This document shows, in pieces, positions 8-26,970 of a DNA stretch of 43,139 nt. The DNA comes from Specibacter cremeus (GTDB lineage: Bacteria > Actinomycetota > Actinomycetes > Actinomycetales > Micrococcaceae). The position numbers were made by a program, and so were the translations under genes. The notes beneath the pieces were generated by a model, which did not search any database, was not told the DNA's origin, and was given only the letters and a program-made list of their open reading frames with translations. The stretch spans positions 22,034 to 65,172 of the forward strand of contig NZ_RWKQ01000024.1 in assembly GCF_003946885.1 (NCBI RefSeq). The letters run 5' to 3'. How positions within the stretch are numbered: position 1 is the stretch's first letter; each line of letters begins with the position of its first letter.

Positions 8-60
8 GGTCTCGACAGGCTCGACCACCGGGTCACGGGGTCTCGACAAGCTCGACCACC
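8..60. repeat. Two palindromic-family half-sites
   Basis: Two copies of the half-site GGTCTCGACARGCTCGACC lie at 8-29 and 39-60, in the same orientation and separated by nine bases. They sit just downstream of the leftward DUF4233 gene that ends at 75. The same family recurs at 5577, 10409, 24410 and 26784 and inside ileS at 4354. The cluster may continue beyond the left edge of the window. Confidence 0.85.
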
Positions 61-505: not shown

Positions 506-1903
506 TCAATTGCCTCCCTTGTCCCCGGGTTCACCGGGCAACTCCGCCGACCGTCCCAGCAGGATCCGGGCCTCGGCCACGAGCGTGATCGATCCGGTGA
601 CCAGGACGGCCCCGGCCAGGTCGTTGTTGGCCTCGGCGCGTTCGATCGCCCACTCGAGGGCGTCGTCGAGCTTCTCGGCGACGTGCACGTCGTCCTCCTG
701 CCAGCCCAGCTCCACGGCCATCTCCGCGAGGTCGGCGGCCGGGATGGCGCGGGGGGATGTGGACCGGGTCAGGCACAGTTCCTCGGCGTCCTCGCCGTAC
801 GATTCACGGATCTGGCGCAGGATCTCCTCGGCATCCTTCTCGGCCAGGATGCCGAGGACGATCACAAGCTTGCTGATCGAGAACGCCTCCTGCAGCGCGG
901 CGGCGCTGGCGGCGATGCCGGCCGGGTTGTGGGCGGCATCCACGACGACGGTCGGAGCCGTGCGCAGCACCTCGAGCCGGCCCGGCGAGGACGCGTTGGC
1001 GAATCCCTCGCGGACCAGGTCGATGTTCAGTTCCTTCTCCCCGCCGCCGAGGAACGCCTCGAGCGCGGCCAGGGCGACGGCGGCGTTCTCCGCCTGGTGT
1101 TCGCCGTGCAGCGGCAGCTGGATGTCGGGGTACCGCCCGGCCAGCCCCCGCAGGGTGACAAGCTGGCCGCCGACGGCCACCCGGCGCGACTCGACGCCGA
1201 ACTCGACGCCCTCGAAACGGAACTCGGCGTGCTTGTCCCGCGCCGTCTCGAGCAGCACCTGGGCGGCGTCCACGGGCTGGGCGGCGCTGACCAGGAAGGC
1301 GCCCTCCTTGATGATGCCGGCCTTCTCCAGCGCGATGTCACCGGTCGTGTCGCCGAGCAGGTCGGTGTGGTCCAGGGAGATCGGCGTGACGACGGCGACC
1401 TGCCCGTCGCCGACGTTCGTGGCGTCGGTGATGCCGCCCAGGCCCACCTCCAGCACGGCCACGTCGACGGGCTCGTCCGCGAAGACGGCGAACGCCAGGA
1501 TGGTCAGGCACTCGAAGTAGGTGAGCCGCTGTTCGCCGGCGGCTTCCAGCTCCGCGTCGACGATCTGCAGGTACGGGCGGATCTCGTCCCAGTTGCGCAC
1601 GAACGTCTCGTCGGACACCGGCGCCCCGTCGATGCTGATGCGCTCGGTCACCTTGGTCAGGTGCGGGCTGGTGTACCGGCCGGTGCGCAGCCCGTGGGCG
1701 AGCAGGCCGGATTCGATCATGCGGGCCGTGGACGTCTTGCCGTTGGTGCCGGTGATGTGGATGATCGGGTACGCCTTGTTCGGCTCGCCGAGGATGTCCA
1801 TGGCCCGGAACAGCGGGGCCAGGCGCGGCTCCATCTTGTTCTCCGGCGCCCGGCCGAGCAGTTCGGCGTAGACGCTTGCCACGGAAAATTCGTCATGGCT
1901 CAT
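506..1903 (-). CDS. folC: Dihydrofolate synthase / folylpolyglutamate synthase
   Basis: The predicted enzyme joins dihydropteroate to L-glutamate and then extends the polyglutamate tail of folates, using ATP, in the cytoplasm. The 465-residue protein has the Mur-ligase ATP-binding loop ITGTNGKTS near residue 50, the motif [13 protein letters not shown] (family form LEVGLGGRLDATN) near 150, the [11 protein letters not shown] segment, and [10 protein letters not shown] in the C-terminal domain. Length is normal for the bifunctional enzyme. Its ATG overlaps the ileS stop (ATGA), so it is probably translationally coupled to ileS and comes under the same T-box leader. Partial readthrough of isoleucine control onto folate synthesis is an inference from this arrangement. 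Confidence 0.95.
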
Positions 1904-4900
1904 TTGGCTGCCATCCTTTCGACCGTGATGGTGGTCTCGACGTCACCGGGGAGCAGTTCCAGCACCACGGTAAGGGTCTCGGTCTTGACGAGTTCGGCGT
2001 TGGCGTGCAGCGCGTCCACCACGTCCTGCGGGGCCGAGATGATGGTCCGGATGCGGTCGGTGACGTTCAGCCCGGCGTCCTTGCGGGCCGACTGGACGGC
2101 GCGGACCAGGTCGCGTGCCGTGCCCTCGGCCTCCAGTTCGGGTGTCACCTCGGTGTTGAGCACCACGAAGCCGCCGCCGGGCAGCAGCGCCACCGCGGCA
2201 GCACCGCCGTCGTCCGTCGCCGCCACGACCGTCTCCAGCGTGTACTCGCCCTCCCGCAGCTCCAGGCCGCCGGCCGTGACGACGCCGTCGGTCTCGGACC
2301 AGTCGCCGGACTTGGCACCCTTGATGGCCTGCTGGACGTTCTTGCCCAGGCGCGGGCCGGCCGCACGGGCGTTGACGACGAGCTTCTGGGTGATGCCGAA
2401 CTCTTCCAGCGAGGCGTCCGCGGCGTCGACGAGCGTCACCGTGCGGATGTTCAGTTCGTCGGCGACGACGCCGGCGCCGCCGTCGAGCGCGGCGGCGTCG
2501 GCGGTCACGATGGTCAGTTCCTGCAGCGGCAGGCGCACGCGCAGCTTGGCCGCCTTGCGCAGGCTGGAGCCGGTGGAACAGATCTGCCGGATCCGGTCCA
2601 TCCGGGCCACGAGGGCGTCATTCGGCACGAACAGGTCGGCGTTCGGCCACTCCGTCAGGTGCACGGAGCGCCCCCCGGTCAGCCCGCGCCAGATCTCCTC
2701 GGAGACGAGGGGCAGCAGCGGGGCGGCCACCCGGGCCACCGTCTCCAGCGCCGTGTAGAGGGCGTCGAACGCGTCGGCGGACTCGTCGAAGAAACGCTGC
2801 CGGCTGCGGCGGACGTACCAGTTGGTGAGCATGTCCAGGTAGTTGCGCAGCGCGTCGCAGGCGCCGGAGACGTCGTACGCGTCCAACAGCCGTGTCACCG
2901 AGCGCACCAGCTCACCCGTGTTCGCCATCAGGTATTCGTCCAGCGGGTCGGTGTACCCGTCGAAGCGCAGAACTGCTTCATAGCCGGTGGCATGGCCGGT
3001 CCCGGCGTTGGCCGAGTTGGCGTACAGCGTGAAGAAGCTGTACACGTTCCACAGCGGCAGGATGACCTGGCGGACGCCGTCGCGGATGCCCTGCTCGGTG
3101 ACGATCAGGTTCCCGCCGCGCAGGATCGGGCTGGACATGAGGAACCAGCGCATGGCGTCGGAGCCGTCACGGTCCAGCACCTCGGAGACGTCCGGGTAGT
3201 TCTGCAGCGACTTGGACATCTTCTGCCCGTCGGAGCCGAGCACGACGCCGTGGCTGATGACGTTGCGGAACGCCGGGCGGTCGAACAGCGCCGTGGCCAG
3301 GATGTGCAGCGTGTAGAACCAGCCGCGCGTCTGGCCGATGTACTCGACGATGAAGTCGCCTGGGTTGTGGTGGTCGAACCAGTCCTGGGACTCGAACGGG
3401 TAGTGCACCTGGGCGTACGGCATCGAGCCGGAGTCGAACCAGACATCCAGCACGTCCTCGACCCGGCGCATGGTCGACTGGCCCTCCTCGGGCGTGCGCG
3501 GGTCGTCCGGGTTGGGCCGGATCAGCTCGTCGATGAAGGGCCGGTGCAGGTCCGGCTGGCCCGCATGGTTGAGCGGCAGCCGGCCGAAATCGGCCTCCAG
3601 CTCGGCCAGCGAACCGTACACGTCGGTCCGCGGGTATTCGGGATCGTCGGACTGCCATACCGGGATGGGGCTGCCCCAATACCGGTTGCGGCTGATTGAC
3701 CAGTCGCGGGCGTTCGCCAGCCATTTGCCGAACTGGCCGTCCTTGACGTTCTCCGGGATCCAGTTGATCTGCTGGTTCAGTTCGACCATGCGGTCCTTGA
3801 TCTTCGTGACCTCCACGTACCAGGACGAGATGGCGCGGTAGATCAGCGGCGTGCGGCACCGCCAGCAGTGCGGGTAGCTGTGCTCGTAGCTGGCCTGGCG
3901 CAGCAGCCGGCCGGCCGTGCGCAGCACACCGGTGATGGTCTTGTTCGCGTCGAACACGTGCACGCCGGCGATCGCGGCCAGCGGCGCGGCGCCGTCGACG
4001 GGCGTGGCGAACAGCGGCAGGAACTTCGCCCCCTCGTCCACGGACAGCACCACGGGGATGCCGTTGGCCTCGCAGATGGCCTGGTCCTCCTCGCCGTAGG
4101 CGGGGGCCTGGTGGACGATGCCGGTGCCGTCGGTCGTCGTGACGTAGTCGGCGACGAGGATCTGCCACGCGTTCTCCGTGCCGTACTTCTCGGCGTCGGC
4201 GAAGTAGTGCCACAGCGGCTCGTAGCGCAGGCCGGCCAGGTCGGCGCCCGCGTAGGTGGCGGTGACAGCCTCGGCGGCGGTGGCCGCGTCCTCATAGCCC
4301 AGGTCCTTCGCATGGGCGGCCAGCAGGTCGGAGGCGAGCAGGAACCGCGGAACGGTGGTTGAGCCGGCCGGACCCCCTGTGGTTTCGGCAGGCTCAACCA
4401 CCGAGGTCCCGTGGGGGCCGGCGGGTACGACGACGTAGCTCACCTCGGGCCCGACGGCGAGGGCTTGGTTGGTGGGCAGGGTCCACGGCGTGGTCGTCCA
4501 GGCCAGGGCGTTCACGCCGGCCAGTTCGGCGGCCAGCGGGTTGGCCTCCCGGCCGTCGAACGGTTCGGCGAGCAGCGGGAACGTGACCGTGACGGTCTGG
4601 TCCTGGCGCATCTTGTAGACGTCGTCGTCCATGCGCAGCTCGTGGTTGGACAGCGGCGTCTCATCCTTCCAGCAGTATGGCAGCACGCGGAAGCCCTGGT
4701 AGGTCAGGCCCTTCTCGTGCAGCTGCTTGAAGGCCCAGATGACCGATTCCATGTACTCGACGTTGAGCGTCTTGTAGTCGTTCTTGAAGTCGACCCACCG
4801 TGCTTGGCGGGTGACGTACTCCTGCCATTCGCCGGTGTATTTCATGACGGAGGCGCGGCAGGCGTCATTGAACTTGTCGATGCCCATGGCCTCGATCTGC

Positions 4901-5268
4901 TTCTTGTCCGTCATGCCCAGCTGTTTCATGGCCTCGAGTTCGGCCGGCAGCCCGTGCGTGTCCCAGCCGAAGCGGCGTTCCACCCGCTTGCCGCGCTGCG
5001 TCTGGTACCGGCCCACGATGTCCTTGACGTAGCCGGTGAGCAGGTGCCCGTAGTGGGGAAGGCCGTTGGCGAAGGGCGGGCCGTCGTAGAACACGAACTC
5101 GTTCGTGCCGTCGGCGCCGGCGTCGCGGCGGTCGATGCTCTCGGCGAAGGTGCCGTCCTCGGACCAGTACTTGAGGACGCGTTCCTCGATCTCGGGGAAG
5201 CGCACGGACGCGGGAACGTGGCTGGAGCCGGCGTGGTGGGCGGCGGACGCCTTCGGGTACTGGGTCAT
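1900..5268 (-). CDS. ileS: Isoleucyl-tRNA synthetase
   Basis: This class I synthetase charges tRNA-Ile. The 1122-residue protein shows the HIGH-type motif HYGH at about 72-75, the editing-domain signature [10 protein letters not shown] near 270, the editing segment [15 protein letters not shown] near 385, and KMSKS near 682. The start of the catalytic domain ([16 protein letters not shown]) is the eukaryote-like 'type 2' form, which is generally associated with mupirocin tolerance. The chosen ATG has AGGATGATGAG just upstream; an in-frame ATG 22 codons earlier lies inside the T-box leader and is rejected. A palindromic repeat is embedded in frame in the editing domain (residues about 289-305). 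Its stop overlaps the folC start. Confidence 0.96.
4354..4402. repeat. Palindromic repeat embedded in frame in ileS
   Basis: Outer arms GGTGGTTGAGCC (4354-4365) and GGCTCAACCACC (4391-4402) are perfect reverse complements. The inner parts resemble the half-sites of the intergenic repeat family, for example GGTTTCGGCAGGCTCAACC beside GGTCTCGACAGGCTCGACC. The element keeps the reading frame and encodes IleS residues about 289-305 (including [13 protein letters not shown]), between the strand ending YVVVP and the helix starting LLASDLL in the editing domain. An in-frame insertion is inferred; the exact insertion ends cannot be set from one genome. Confidence 0.8.
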
Positions 5269-5472: not shown

Positions 5473-5576
5473 TCCCATTCTACGGGATCCGGGCCCGGAC
5501 ATTACTCCCAGACGGAGTCCTTCGCCGGCGCCTGCTCGATGACGTGCTGGATGCGCTCGAGGGTTGGCCACATGTC

Positions 5577-5688
5577 GGTGGTCGAGCCCCGTCGAGACCC
5601 CGGATTTCGACGGTGCTCAATCACCGGCCCCGGATTTCGACGGCGCTCAATCACCGGCCCCGGATTTCGACGGGGCTCAATCACCGGC
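5577..5688. repeat. Palindromic half-site plus three 30-bp tandem units
   Basis: One half-site GGTGGTCGAGCCCCGTCGAG starts at 5577. It is followed by three tandem units of exactly 30 bp (5601-5630, 5631-5660, and 5661 on). Through the first 28 bases the three units differ at a single position, the fourteenth base being T, C and G respectively. The third unit overlaps the end of the leftward SDR gene and supplies its last codons and stop. The array lies between the ileS leader promoter and the SDR gene. Confidence 0.9.
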
Positions 5689-6459
5689 GGATGCGCGGAT
5701 GATCTTGTGCGCGGCCGCCTGGGCGACCGGCCGGACGACGATCTCGTCAAGGTTCACGTGGTGCGGGGCGTTCACGGCGTAGGCGATGATGTCGGCCACG
5801 TCCGCGGCCGTGAGCGGTTCGGCCACGCCGGAATACACGGCGTCGGCCGACGCCCGGTCGCCGCCGAGCCGGTGCAGCGAGAATTCCTCGGTGCGCACCA
5901 ACCCGGGCAGCACCTCGATGACGCGCAGGTTGTTGCCGACCTCCTCCAGGCGCAGCGCCTGGGTCATGGCCCGCTGCGCTGCCTTGGCGGCGTTGTAGCC
6001 GGCGCCGCCCTCGTAGCTGACCAGCGCGGCGAAGCTGGTCAGGTTCAGCACGGTGCCGTTGCGCCCGGCCCGCAGCATGGGCAGGAACGCCTTGGTGAGC
6101 TTCATGGTGCCCAGGACGTTCACCCGGTACATCCAGTCCCAGTCGTCGGCGTCCGCCTCGGCCACAGGGTCCACGCCGCGCGCGCCACCGGAAATGTTGA
6201 CCAGCGTATCGATGCCGCCGCCGGCGGTGACGGCCGCGACCAGGGCGGCGACGTCGTCGTCGTTCGTGATGTCCGCGGGGACGGCGAGCGCGCCGGTCTC
6301 CGCTGCCAGTGCGGCGAGCCGGTCGGCGCGGCGGGCGACGGCGTACACCGTCCAGCCCGTGGCGGCCAGGGCGCGCACGGTGGCGTCGCCGATGCCGGTG
6401 GAGGCTCCGGTGACGACGGCACGCTTCGCGGGGACGGGGGTGGTGGAACTATCAGCCAT
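5677..6459 (-). CDS. Short-chain dehydrogenase/reductase (SDR)
   Basis: This is a 260-residue classical SDR, a cytoplasmic NAD(P)-dependent oxidoreductase of unknown substrate. Visible features are the cofactor loop TGASTGIG near residues 18-25, the acidic position in PADITNDDD near 60, a variant NNAG region (NISGG) near 88, a catalytic serine in NLTSFAAL near 138, and YNAAK near 152-156. It resembles the YdfG-like 3-hydroxy acid or sepiapterin-type reductases, but the substrate cannot be assigned. The final residues GD and the stop codon come from a copy of the 30-bp repeat, so the original C-terminus may have been altered. The neighbouring DUF488 gene ends four bases before its start, suggesting a shared transcript. 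Confidence 0.88.
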   Translation of the reverse strand: MADSSTTPVPAKRAVVTGASTGIGDATVRALAATGWTVYAVARRADRLAALAAETGALAVPADITNDDDVAALVAAVTAGGGIDTLVNISGGARGVDPVAEADADDWDWMYRVNVLGTMKLTKAFLPMLRAGRNGTVLNLTSFAALVSYEGGAGYNAAKAAQRAMTQALRLEEVGNNLRVIEVLPGLVRTEEFSLHRLGGDRASADAVYSGVAEPLTAADVADIIAYAVNAPHHVNLDEIVVRPVAQAAAHKIIRASAGD

Positions 6460-7781: not shown

Positions 7782-10400
7782 ATGGCTGAACATTTCCCGG
7801 GTACAGACACGCCCGCCCCCACCCCGACCACCGTTCCCGACAAGCCGGCCCTGGAGGGCCTGGAATCGTCGCTGACGCGCCGCTGGCTCGCCGAAGGCAC
7901 GTACAAGTTCGACCACGAGACGACCCGCGAGGCCGTCTACTCGATCGACACTCCCCCGCCCACGGCCTCCGGTTCGCTGCATGTGGGGCACATGTTCTCC
8001 TACACCCAGACCGACGTGCTGGCCCGCTTCCAGCGCATGAACGGCAAGAACGTGTTCTACCCGATGGGTTGGGACGACAACGGCCTGCCCACCGAGCGCC
8101 GCGTGCAGAACTACTTCGGCGTGCGCTGCGACCCGACGGTCCCCTACGACGCCGACTACCGCCCGCCGGGCACGCCCGCCAAGAACCAGCGCGACTGGGA
8201 CGCCGTCTCGCGCCGCAACTTCATCGAGCTGTGCGAGGAACTGGCCGTCGAGGACGAGTTGGTCTTCGAGCACCTGTTCCAGACCCTGGGCCTGTCCGTC
8301 GACTGGCAGCTGACCTACCGCACCATCGACCACGCGTCCCGCGCCGCCTCGCAGCGCGGCTTCCTGGACAACCTGGCCGCCGGGAACGCGTACATGGCCG
8401 AGGCGCCCACGCTGTGGGATGTCACGTTCCGCACGGCCGTGGCGCAGGCCGAGCTCGAGGACCGGGAGATGCCCGGCGCCTACTACCGGTACCCGTTGTT
8501 CGCCGAGGACGGCACGAAGGTGTACATCGAGACGACCCGCCCGGAACTGCTCGCCGCCTGTGCCGCGCTCGTGGCCAACCCGGACGACGAACGCTACCGG
8601 CCGCTGTTCGGCAAGAAGGTCACCTCCCCGCTGTTCGGCGTCGAGGTGGAGGTGAAGGCGCACCCGCTGGCCAAGGCGGACAAGGGCTCCGGCATCGCCA
8701 TGGTGTGCACGTTCGGCGACCTGACCGACGTCACCTGGTGGCGGGAGCTGCAACTGCCCACGCGCGCCATCATCGGCCGTGACGGCCGTGTCCTGGCCGA
8801 CACCCCCGACTGGATCACGACCGAGGCGGGCCGGGCCAACTACGCCCTCATCGCCGGCAAGACCGTGTTCAGCGCCAAGGAGGGCGTGGCCGCGATGCTC
8901 GCCGAGGCCGGCCTGCTCGACGGCGAGCCCAAGAAGATCATGCACCCCGTGAACTTCTACGAGAAGGGCGACAAGCCGCTCGAGGTCGTCACGTCCCGCC
9001 AGTGGTACATCCGCAACGGCGGCCGCGACGAGGACCGCCGGGAACGGCTGATCGGCCGGGGCCGGGAGATCGACTTCCACCCCGCGTTCATGCGCTCGCG
9101 CTACGAAAACTGGATCGCCGGGCTGAACGGTGACTGGCTGGTCTCCCGGCAGCGTTTCTTCGGTGTGCCGATCCCCGTCTGGTACCCGCTGGACGCCGCC
9201 GGCGAACCCGACCACGACCACCCGATCCTGCCCACCCACGACCTGCTGCCCGTCGACCCGGCCGCCGACCCGGCCCCCGGCTACACGGAGGAGCAGCGCA
9301 ACCAGCCGGGCGGCTTCGTCGGCGACGCCGACGTGCTCGACACGTGGGCGACGTCGTCGCTGACCCCGCAGATCGTGGGCGGCTGGGGCCGCGACACCGA
9401 CCTGTTCGCGAAGGTCTACCCGTTCGACCTGCGCCCGCAGGGGCACGACATCATCCGGACGTGGCTGTTCTCCTCGGTGGTGCGGGCCGACGCCCTGCAG
9501 GGCTCCGCCCCGTGGCGGCATGCCGCCCTGTCCGGCTGGATCCTGGACCCGGACCGGAAGAAAATGTCCAAGTCGAAGGGCAACGTCGTGGTCCCCACGG
9601 ACGTGCTCGACGAGTTCGGCGCCGACGCCGTGCGCTACTGGGCGGCCTCCGCCAAGCTGGGAGCGGACACCGCGTACGAGGTGGCGCAGATGAAGATCGG
9701 CCGCCGCCTGGCCATCAAGCTGCTGAACGCGTCGAAGTTCGTGCTCAACCTGGGCGCCACGGACGCGAACGTGCTCGCCGGTTCTTCGTCGGCCGCGACC
9801 AACCCCTTGGACCGTGCGTTGCTGGCGCAACTGGCCGACGTCGTCGACCAAGCCACCGCCGCCTTTGAAAACTATGACTACGCCCGCGCCCTGCAGGTCA
9901 CCGAGAGCTTCTTCTGGCAGTTCACGGACGACTACGTCGAGCTGATCAAGGACCGTGCCTACGGTGCCGCCGGCGACGACGAACAGGCCTCCGTGCTGGC
10001 CACGCTGGCCACGACACTGGATTCGCTGCTGCGCCTGTTCGCCCCGTTCCTGCCGTTCGCCACCGAAGAGGTGTGGAGCTGGTGGCGGACCGGTTCGGTG
10101 CACCGTGCCGCATGGCCGGTCGCCCTGGCGTCCGACGGGGACACGGCCCTGTTGCCGACCGTGGGCACCGCCCTCAGCGGCATCCGCAAGGCCAAGTCCG
10201 AGGCGAAGGTGAAGCAGCGCACCCGGGTGATCTCCGCCGTCGTGACCGCCCCCGAGGCGCAGGCCGGGCAGCTGGCCGCCGGGCTGGGCGACCTGAAGGC
10301 CGCCGCGAACGCCGTGGACATCACCGTGGTGGTGGGCGGTTCCGACATCGTCGTCAGCGATGTGGAGCTGGCACCGGCGGAGGAACCCGCCCAAGCGTAG
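7782..10400 (+). CDS. valS: Valyl-tRNA synthetase
   Basis: This class I synthetase charges tRNA-Val. The 872-residue protein has HVGH at 67-70, the WDDNGLPTERR block near 94-104, editing-domain segments such as YIETTRPELLAACAALV near 250, and KKMSKSKGN near 592-600. It is shorter than the E. coli enzyme (about 950). The tail is a short alanine-rich segment ending AEEPAQA, with no long C-terminal coiled coil visible. It lies directly after gluQRS in the same direction and is followed by a palindromic repeat and a likely terminator. In M. tuberculosis, from memory, valS is beside folC; here the two are about 6 kb apart with ileS and others between. Confidence 0.96.
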   Translation: MAEHFPGTDTPAPTPTTVPDKPALEGLESSLTRRWLAEGTYKFDHETTREAVYSIDTPPPTASGSLHVGHMFSYTQTDVLARFQRMNGKNVFYPMGWDDNGLPTERRVQNYFGVRCDPTVPYDADYRPPGTPAKNQRDWDAVSRRNFIELCEELAVEDELVFEHLFQTLGLSVDWQLTYRTIDHASRAASQRGFLDNLAAGNAYMAEAPTLWDVTFRTAVAQAELEDREMPGAYYRYPLFAEDGTKVYIETTRPELLAACAALVANPDDERYRPLFGKKVTSPLFGVEVEVKAHPLAKADKGSGIAMVCTFGDLTDVTWWRELQLPTRAIIGRDGRVLADTPDWITTEAGRANYALIAGKTVFSAKEGVAAMLAEAGLLDGEPKKIMHPVNFYEKGDKPLEVVTSRQWYIRNGGRDEDRRERLIGRGREIDFHPAFMRSRYENWIAGLNGDWLVSRQRFFGVPIPVWYPLDAAGEPDHDHPILPTHDLLPVDPAADPAPGYTEEQRNQPGGFVGDADVLDTWATSSLTPQIVGGWGRDTDLFAKVYPFDLRPQGHDIIRTWLFSSVVRADALQGSAPWRHAALSGWILDPDRKKMSKSKGNVVVPTDVLDEFGADAVRYWAASAKLGADTAYEVAQMKIGRRLAIKLLNASKFVLNLGATDANVLAGSSSAATNPLDRALLAQLADVVDQATAAFENYDYARALQVTESFFWQFTDDYVELIKDRAYGAAGDDEQASVLATLATTLDSLLRLFAPFLPFATEEVWSWWRTGSVHRAAWPVALASDGDTALLPTVGTALSGIRKAKSEAKVKQRTRVISAVVTAPEAQAGQLAAGLGDLKAAANAVDITVVVGGSDIVVSDVELAPAEEPAQA

Positions 10401-10408
10401 CCGGGCGC

Positions 10409-10446
10409 TGGTCGAGCCCGTGCCGGTGGTCGAGCCCGTCGAGACC
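10409..10446. repeat. Palindromic-family half-sites downstream of valS
   Basis: A truncated copy (TGGTCGAGCCCG, 10409-10420) is followed by a full half-site (GGTGGTCGAGCCCGTCGAG from 10425). It sits immediately after the valS stop, between convergent genes, as do the larger clusters at 24410 and 26784. Confidence 0.8.
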
Positions 10447-24409: not shown

Positions 24410-24542
24410 GGTCTCGACAAGCTCGACCACCGGTGATTGAGCCTGTCCTTCGGTGATTGAGCCTGTCGAAATCGGGGTCTCGACAAGCTCGACCACCGGT
24501 GATTGAGCCTGTCGAAATCGGGTCTCGACAAGCTCGACCACC
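24410..24542. repeat. Cluster of palindromic-family repeats (about five half-sites)
   Basis: Alternating half-sites GGTCTCGACAAGCTCGACC and GGTGATTGAGCCTGTCGAA are joined with almost no spacing, so neighbouring pairs can form hairpins with arms of about 22 bases. The arms differ only by transitions, giving several G-T pairs. One unit is cut short (CCTGTCCTTC near 24450). The cluster fills the gap between the convergent glbO and the leftward gene ending at 24557. Confidence 0.9.
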
Positions 24543-26783: not shown

Positions 26784-26945
26784 GGTGATCGAGCCTGTCG
26801 AGATCGCCCCCGGGTCTCGACAAGCTCGACCACCGGACGCGGTGATTGAGCCTGTCGAAATCAACCCCGGTCTCGACAAGCTCGACCACCGGACGCGGTG
26901 ATTGAGCCTGTCGAAATCAACCCCGGTCTCGACAAGCTCGACCAG
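26784..26945. repeat. Palindromic repeats in a 56-bp tandem array
   Basis: After a half-site at 26784-26805, a 56-bp unit repeats from 26813, 26869 and 26925 (the last partial). Each unit is GGTCTCGACAAGCTCGACC-type half-site, a GGACGC spacer, GGTGATTGAGCCTGTCGAA-type half-site, and an AACCCC spacer. The two complete units look almost identical. The array occupies the whole gap between the convergent tesB and ettA stops and ends with degenerate fragments (GCTCGACCAGCG twice). Confidence 0.92.
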
Positions 26946-26970
26946 CGAAGCTCGACCAGCGCGGCTGGGG

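Follow-up and report, generated by a model that had tools for sequence, protein, structure and literature searches.

A palindromic insert read in frame within ileS of Specibacter cremeus matches a dispersed REP-like repeat family that also lies in other genes

The window, a stretch of 43,139 nucleotides from Specibacter cremeus, contains the ileS gene as a minus-strand open reading frame (ORF) that by translation starts at 5268 and ends at 1900; its product is identified by PF00133 (1.6e-124) and by NCBIfam model TIGR00392 with 798 bits against a cut-off of 621. ileS is an essential gene, and this genome (G000 in the comparisons) has a single match to the ileS fragment. A T-box suspected by eye ahead of ileS was rejected, as Rfam has no match there at the gathering score. 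A palindromic insert lies within the gene, and further copies of the same repeat are found elsewhere in the window; the features are as follows.

1900..5268, minus strand: ileS, isoleucine--tRNA ligase, 1122 aa plus stop (translation, Pfam, NCBIfam)
4353..4403, minus strand: in-frame palindromic insert, an inverted pair of REP-like units, IleS residues 289-306 in a loop of the CP1 editing domain
4381..4402, plus strand: unit A, 0 mismatches to GRTYTCGRCNNGCTCRAYCACC; the gene strand reads VVEPAETT
4354..4375, minus strand: unit B, 2 mismatches to GRTYTCGRCNNGCTCRAYCACC; the gene strand reads GPAGSTT
8..60, plus strand: two direct units at the window edge, with no ORF of at least 25 codons on both sides
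5576..5686, no strand assigned: cluster upstream of ileS, one unit and three 30-nt direct repeats, 3-nt loop variant
10425..10446, minus strand: single unit directly behind the synthetase-like ORF 7782-10400
24410..24542, no strand assigned: array of five units in alternating orientation, between genes
26784..26946, no strand assigned: array of six units in alternating orientation, from the pattern search

On the ileS strand the insert reads CGGTGGTTGAGCCTGCCGAAACCACAGGGGGTCCGGCCGGCTCAACCACCG, with conserved flanks on either side, and its 51 bp form 17 codons in frame with ileS. The arms of the inverted repeat (4353-4375 and 4381-4403) are 23 nt each, 87% complementary and separated by a 5-nt spacer; they include the perfect inner arms GGTGGTTGAGCC at 4354-4365 and GGCTCAACCACC at 4391-4402, which the first-pass annotation had correctly described as a palindrome inside the gene. 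The same annotation spoke of about 17 extra residues in the editing domain; this holds for the inserted codons, but compared with the shortest relatives the protein is longer by a net 14 residues, VGP to FLL spanning 40 residues here and 26 in those relatives. The predicted fold of the RNA of region 4345-4411 is strong (-42.7 kcal/mol, z -4.5). A MITE would have terminal inverted repeats, a target-site duplication and a parent transposase; inspection by eye shows no such duplication at ileS, nor at mfd, a second gene that carries units. The other copies in the window had been placed between genes, and ORF and Pfam scans agree for those that were checked: two of the arrays have no ORF of at least 25 codons on both sides, the unit at 10425 stands behind ORF 7782-10400, and the long ORF covering 24410-24542 has no Pfam match. 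For 26784-26889 the agreement is less firm: a long ORF extends into it, though with a Pfam domain beginning only at residue 389. The 5576..5686 cluster extends into the last codons of a short-chain dehydrogenase gene (5677-6459); its direct repeats carry a unit variant with a 3-nt loop, GATTTCGACGGNGCTCAATCACC.

The insert belongs to a dispersed repeat family, as had been claimed. At up to 2 mismatches the pattern GRTYTCGRCNNGCTCRAYCACC has 885 matches in the 4.31 Mb of this genome against 3 for the reversed pattern, and within the window the pattern GGTTTCGRCNNGCTCAACCACC at up to 3 mismatches has 15 matches against 0.03 expected from dinucleotide shuffles. The unit, present in about 885 copies, is 22-23 nt long and, read from its tag, consists of CGGT followed by GRTYGAGCYYGTCGARAYC, a small hairpin with a covarying stem. 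Among 219 units measured in an 843 kb sample of this genome, 144 have GC and 65 have AT at pair 2-18, and 136 have CG and 74 have TA at pair 4-16; the two pairs are seen in every one of the four combinations, which the search pattern allowed and did not force. ACCG stands at unit positions 20-23 in 91, 95, 100 and 97% of units (CGGT as the start on the other strand), with positions 20-22 falling within the search pattern so that only the 97% for G at position 23 is independent of it. Opposite orientation is seen in 92 of 135 neighbouring pairs no more than 60 nt apart, and a unit on its own has a weak predicted fold (-0.1 to -2.2 kcal/mol, z -0.90 to +0.35). The 23 genomes of the genus have between 0 and 832 copies each at up to 1 mismatch. 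A search for a plasmid vehicle with a 67-base query had no match at E 0.01 among 72,556 plasmid records; as to a phage vehicle, an exact 23-mer that represents one of many unit variants is present in two viral contigs (L405 and L406).

The 843 kb sample combines the window with two sets of 400 kb each, one from five contigs and one from seven more that were selected from contigs known beforehand to contain units; it holds 83 unit clusters at up to 2 mismatches. Ten of these lie in frame within seven genes that have Pfam or NCBIfam support: ileS, menD, two E2 acyltransferase genes (one being sucB), a gene for a tricorn-like protease, mfd and hrpA, with two in-frame places each in sucB, mfd and hrpA. 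In the E2 acyltransferase gene other than sucB the units lie between the lipoyl and E3-binding domains; sucB contains assembly Ns, and its two ORF pieces were treated as one gene. A scan of 40 further ORFs over clusters added hrpA alone, and the figure of 10 is a lower bound, as not every ORF was scanned; it lies far below the coding share, assumed to be 85%. Single 2-mismatch units in FAD-binding, MFS and glycosyltransferase ORFs resemble chance matches and were excluded from this count, and ORFs over C2:38603, C4:64615 and C23:60681 were left uncounted, Pfam having no match that spans the units. At least six other genes of this genome carry units besides ileS; the reach of the family, some of whose in-gene loops are occupied in several species, is therefore wider than the first-pass annotation had it.

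The ileS loop was compared with 22 other genomes of the genus (23 including this one). The VGP-to-FLL stretch has 26-33 residues in the 20 relatives in which it was measured, against 40 here, and the remaining two, which have FLI for FLL, align as short. An alignment of relatives had been proposed as a check on insertion, and its outcome agrees: the full palindrome is found in none of the 22, and the full-form insert is on that count derived. Three relatives (G005, G008 and G011) carry one unit each, with 0-1 mismatches, in the same loop and frame; two (G022 and G007) have decayed look-alikes as judged by eye, and 17 have no unit trace there. In none of the relatives read do the 17 residues occur with unrelated DNA. 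At the level of the family an ileS search gave a match in 132 of 148 genomes, 125 of them outside the genus, and the loops of 83 of these 125 were read (25 loci and 58 stretches), the longest being deliberately included. One of the 83, G097, has two perfect direct units at the ileS loop, VVEPVETQPPVVEPVETQ; other long inserts are present there in G029, G056, G116 and G037. The longer insert of L064 (G029, genus g8) contains GGTGGTCGACCAAGCGAGCGCCAGCGAGCGCGTGGAGACC and resembles a long-loop relative of the unit; those of L093 (G116), L108 (G056) and L105 (G037) are without the repeat, one of them being a tandem of TAQEG. The best 80 named matches, more of which exist, include Arthrobacter sp. 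SO3 at 67%, two Rothia at 65-66% and a record titled Sporosarcina beigongshangi at 75%. Across 106 aligned sequences the loop varies freely, and on these alignments it is tolerant of length changes.

Thr/Ser- and Glu/Pro-rich loops in a GC-rich genome could resemble the repeat by chance. When codons are shuffled among identical residues with the IleS protein fixed, 4 of 300 shuffles likewise reach 0 mismatches, and the ileS palindrome, with 21 of 25 positions paired, lies inside the range of 1000 codon shuffles (mean 17.1, maximum 22). Because shuffles that preserve the peptide reproduce much of the palindrome, it is not extreme given the peptide, and the case therefore rests on the peptide itself, on the repeat family and on the relatives. 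The three single 2-mismatch matches in or beside the FAD-binding, MFS and glycosyltransferase Pfam domains also look random, about two chance matches being expected from the control. Against coincidence stands the reversed pattern, which, with up to 2 mismatches allowed, matches once in 443 kb where 94 kb of gene fragments, chosen because G000 carries units there, have 38 units at the same threshold; several in-gene units are perfect, and these occur in both orientations, while one of 83 IleS loops from other genera holds two perfect units. Coding coincidence is considered extremely improbable and was set aside on the family, the control and the relatives, with the codon-shuffle result as the stated limit of that judgement.

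A structural model of IleS residues 202-421 was built from 51 sequences and has a mean pLDDT of 86.3; Foldseek returned IleRS structures and editing domains, such as 1wk8 and 1ile, as its top matches. The insert (fragment residues 88-105) is modelled between strands 76-81 and 107-111, and its block 91-100 has a pLDDT of 51 with a short low-confidence helix at 93-96; residues 1-20 are also poor. In three sequence alignments with solved IleRS structures no residue aligned to IleS 284-328. In this model the insert thus occupies an editing-domain loop that is predicted with low confidence; a surface loop had been anticipated. It is possible to regard the insert as recruited, its peptide or mRNA hairpin having a function in IleS; the strong fold of its mRNA (-42.7 kcal/mol, z -4.5) and the occupation of the ileS loop in several species are compatible with this, yet 17 of the 22 relatives in the genus are without a unit trace and the loop varies freely in the 106 aligned sequences, and recruitment is considered very unlikely. 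The insert is probably about neutral for IleS. The first-pass annotation had suggested that an essential gene can tolerate such an insert, and this is borne out, the frame being kept; ileS probably survived because the insert keeps the frame and reads as a small peptide without bulky or reactive residues.

The in-gene units share a reading frame. Six genes, with G097 counted in, yield 40 such units at up to 2 mismatches, and 36 of them share one phase, which gives the peptide VVEPVET in one orientation and VSTSSTT in the other; these counts come from fragments picked for their G000 units, and units within a gene or in sister species are non-independent. Each of the four exceptions comes after a main-phase unit (menD of G022 and of G008, and twice in the E2 gene of G000). 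By peptide, two more units in sucB of G000 keep to the main frame; both hrpA units are off it. When only the first unit at each site is counted, the main phase accounts for 9 of 10 with the hrpA pair taken as one loop (p 0.0004 at one third), or for 9 of 11 with the hrpA units taken separately. In the main phase the changes at pair 4-16 are silent. It is thought that selection filters the frame of in-gene units, mainly retaining the mild frames VVEPVET and VSTSSTT.

Occupation of the same sites was compared across species at up to 2 mismatches, with hrpA outside the comparison. Units are present in menD in 9 of 23 genomes, at mfd site 1 in 3 of 23 (G000, G011 and G016) and at mfd site 2 in 5 of 23 (G000, G008, G022, G016 and G002); at mfd site 1, G002 additionally carries a unit with 3 mismatches and G013 a decayed array. 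In the latter (L353) the decayed unit has multiplied in frame as a tandem of GGGGCAGGCTCGACC, from which it appears that repeat DNA can keep growing within a gene. The E2 linker carries a unit in 1 of 19 genomes compared (without G010, G014, G018 and G019, whose best matches of about 40-46% are probable paralogues), the tricorn linker in 1 of 10 (without G001, which is partial at 34%, and with no match in 12 genomes), and sucB in 2 of 19 (without G005, G008 and G017, which are paralogue-like or partial, and G004, which has no match); the sucB comparison is less sure, with several rows running over a second lipoyl domain. The sites in ileS, menD and both places in mfd are occupied in several species. 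A unit at one of these four sites is found in 8 of 9 genomes with 20 copies or more and in 2 of 14 with fewer, these two being sisters of each other (Fisher p 0.0007, Spearman 0.76, with species non-independent and the cut of 20 set after the counts were known).

Shared sites may reflect one old insertion per loop that was inherited and then decayed or lost in most species, or repeated arrival. Between the sister species G015 and G020 the menD units resemble each other, and G011 and G016 share the unit of mfd site 1 together with the same two preceding codons, both of which suit an old insertion. On a tree of the 23 genomes, built from mfd, menD and ileS columns with the loops removed, the menD label shows some clustering, which also suits an old insertion (26 of 500 shuffles reach so low a count), and it requires 5 changes against a shuffled mean of 7.3; the labels of ileS (4-5 changes, shuffled mean 3.8-5.4), mfd site 1 (5 against 4.6, with the decayed G013 and 3-mismatch G002 rows included) and mfd site 2 (5 against 4.6) are no different from shuffled labels in clustering or scatter. 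These changes, which pool gains and losses, are forced by well-supported branches and speak against single old insertions. So do the units of G011 and G016 at mfd site 1 and of G016 and G022 at mfd site 2, which still match the consensus perfectly although third positions in three genes differ by 28% between G011 and G016 and by 32% between G016 and G022; moreover G009, the sister of G000 on the tree, is without units at the six genes compared. Inheritance from one old insertion per loop is considered unlikely, and copies are thought to arrive by insertion or copying.

The palindrome in ileS is very probably an inverted pair of units of a chromosomal REP-like family that entered a tolerant loop of IleS. 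A pair of REP-like units would have entered the editing-domain loop, which tolerates changes of length, and other housekeeping genes would have received units of this family in their loops and linkers, in some cases in several species. Points on the other side are net gains below the length of the inserted piece, the lack of a visible target-site duplication at ileS, the absence of PF01797 from this genome, the units outside the main frame, the ileS and mfd labels that behave like shuffled ones on the tree, and the codon-shuffle result. Candidates for the mover are a RAYT-type enzyme that is foreign or has been lost, some other enzyme, or recombination and template switching. The Y1 (RAYT-type) transposase domain PF01797, to which the transposase search was limited, has 0 matches in this genome; it is found in 2 of 23 genomes, one match each in G010 (3 copies) and G017 (9 copies). 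The two Y1 transposase loci, L234 (G010) and L233 (G017), both belong to unit-poor genomes.

Ectopic gene conversion or template switching between palindromes, with no transposase of the family's own, could also spread the units. The most copy-rich genome is without a Y1 transposase, arrays and partial copies occur inside genes (mfd site 1 of G013, and hrpA), and net changes of length fall short of the piece inserted: the gain at ileS is +42 nt for the 51 bp inserted, and the single units of mfd account for net gains of only +9 and +18 nt. A site distant from other copies, however, still requires a first copy, and the build of hairpin plus tag is like that of REPs, which may be mobilised by TnpA-REP enzymes according to the accessible part of PMC8266576. 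Such transposase-free spread is considered a serious possibility, at somewhat less than even chances.

By its size and its CGGT end the family is REP-like and is no Rickettsia palindromic element (RPE). In the broad sense of the term REP elements are recognised by a covarying palindromic stem, high copy number, opposite neighbours and a location mostly outside genes, all of which are found here, the last from the lower bound of 10 in 83 sampled clusters. The first-pass annotation had likened the insert to RPEs, and the likeness holds in that palindromic repeats lie in frame in unrelated genes (PMC10969869 and PMC3733652, as far as their accessible text goes). It fails on size: RPEs, described in the available portion of PMC10969869 as about 150 bp long and in frame in Rickettsia genes, have their own conserved peptide, whereas the unit here has 22-23 nt and 7-8 residues and the ileS insert 51 bp, by which membership is ruled out. 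PMC3733652 deals with REPs tagged GTAG or CGTC; in the sections available these are short palindromic units with many opposite pairs, mostly intergenic and in some cases in frame inside genes, including tRNA synthetases and DNA-repair genes, and the recB of two Xanthomonas species is occupied at about the same site. The present family differs from them in its CGGT tag, in having no Y1 transposase and in occupying several loops in several species. REPINs likewise consist of inverted pairs of REP units that form a genomic population (PMC3116915 and PMC8049555, in the parts consulted), but the RAYT (Y1_Tnp, PF01797) of that system is absent from G000. The model of REP persistence in PMC8049555 treats a gene, in the part available, as destroyed once a REPIN has landed in it; the core genes that bear units here have not been destroyed.

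The insert had also been presented as of a kind not known to be described for this actinobacterial family. In-gene REPs, with tRNA synthetases among their hosts, were already described in other bacteria (PMC3733652, available sections). The main text of PMC3733652 has no mention of Actinobacteria, Actinomyc-, Streptomyces, Mycobacteri- or Arthrobacter. Palindromic repeats of an Arthrobacter genome have already been counted in print, the RepRanger table of REP counts in PMC12306157 including Arthrobacter livingstonensis; the accessible portion of that paper gives no comparable sequence and nothing on in-gene copies in Actinomycetota. Six DNA and six peptide strings of the repeat had no match in the open literature that was searched, and titles and beginnings of abstracts in that literature, outside which most subscription journals fall, yielded no recognised in-gene REPs of Actinobacteria.

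It is suggested, as a tentative and rather doubtful extension, that an actinobacterial REP-like family, whose mover would be some novel enzyme or at any rate no RAYT, repeatedly adds in-frame linkers to the same loops of core proteins, so that in this genus the loops of IleS, MenD and Mfd would consist partly of repeat DNA. A large REP-like family without the expected transposase raises the question of its mover. With units in core genes of several species and copy numbers from 0 to 832, the cost of insertion, the filter on frame and the permissive loops become measurable, and the family serves as a natural experiment on the entry of new linker peptides into essential enzymes. Repeat DNA can become protein: units lie in flexible loops of important genes without breaking them.
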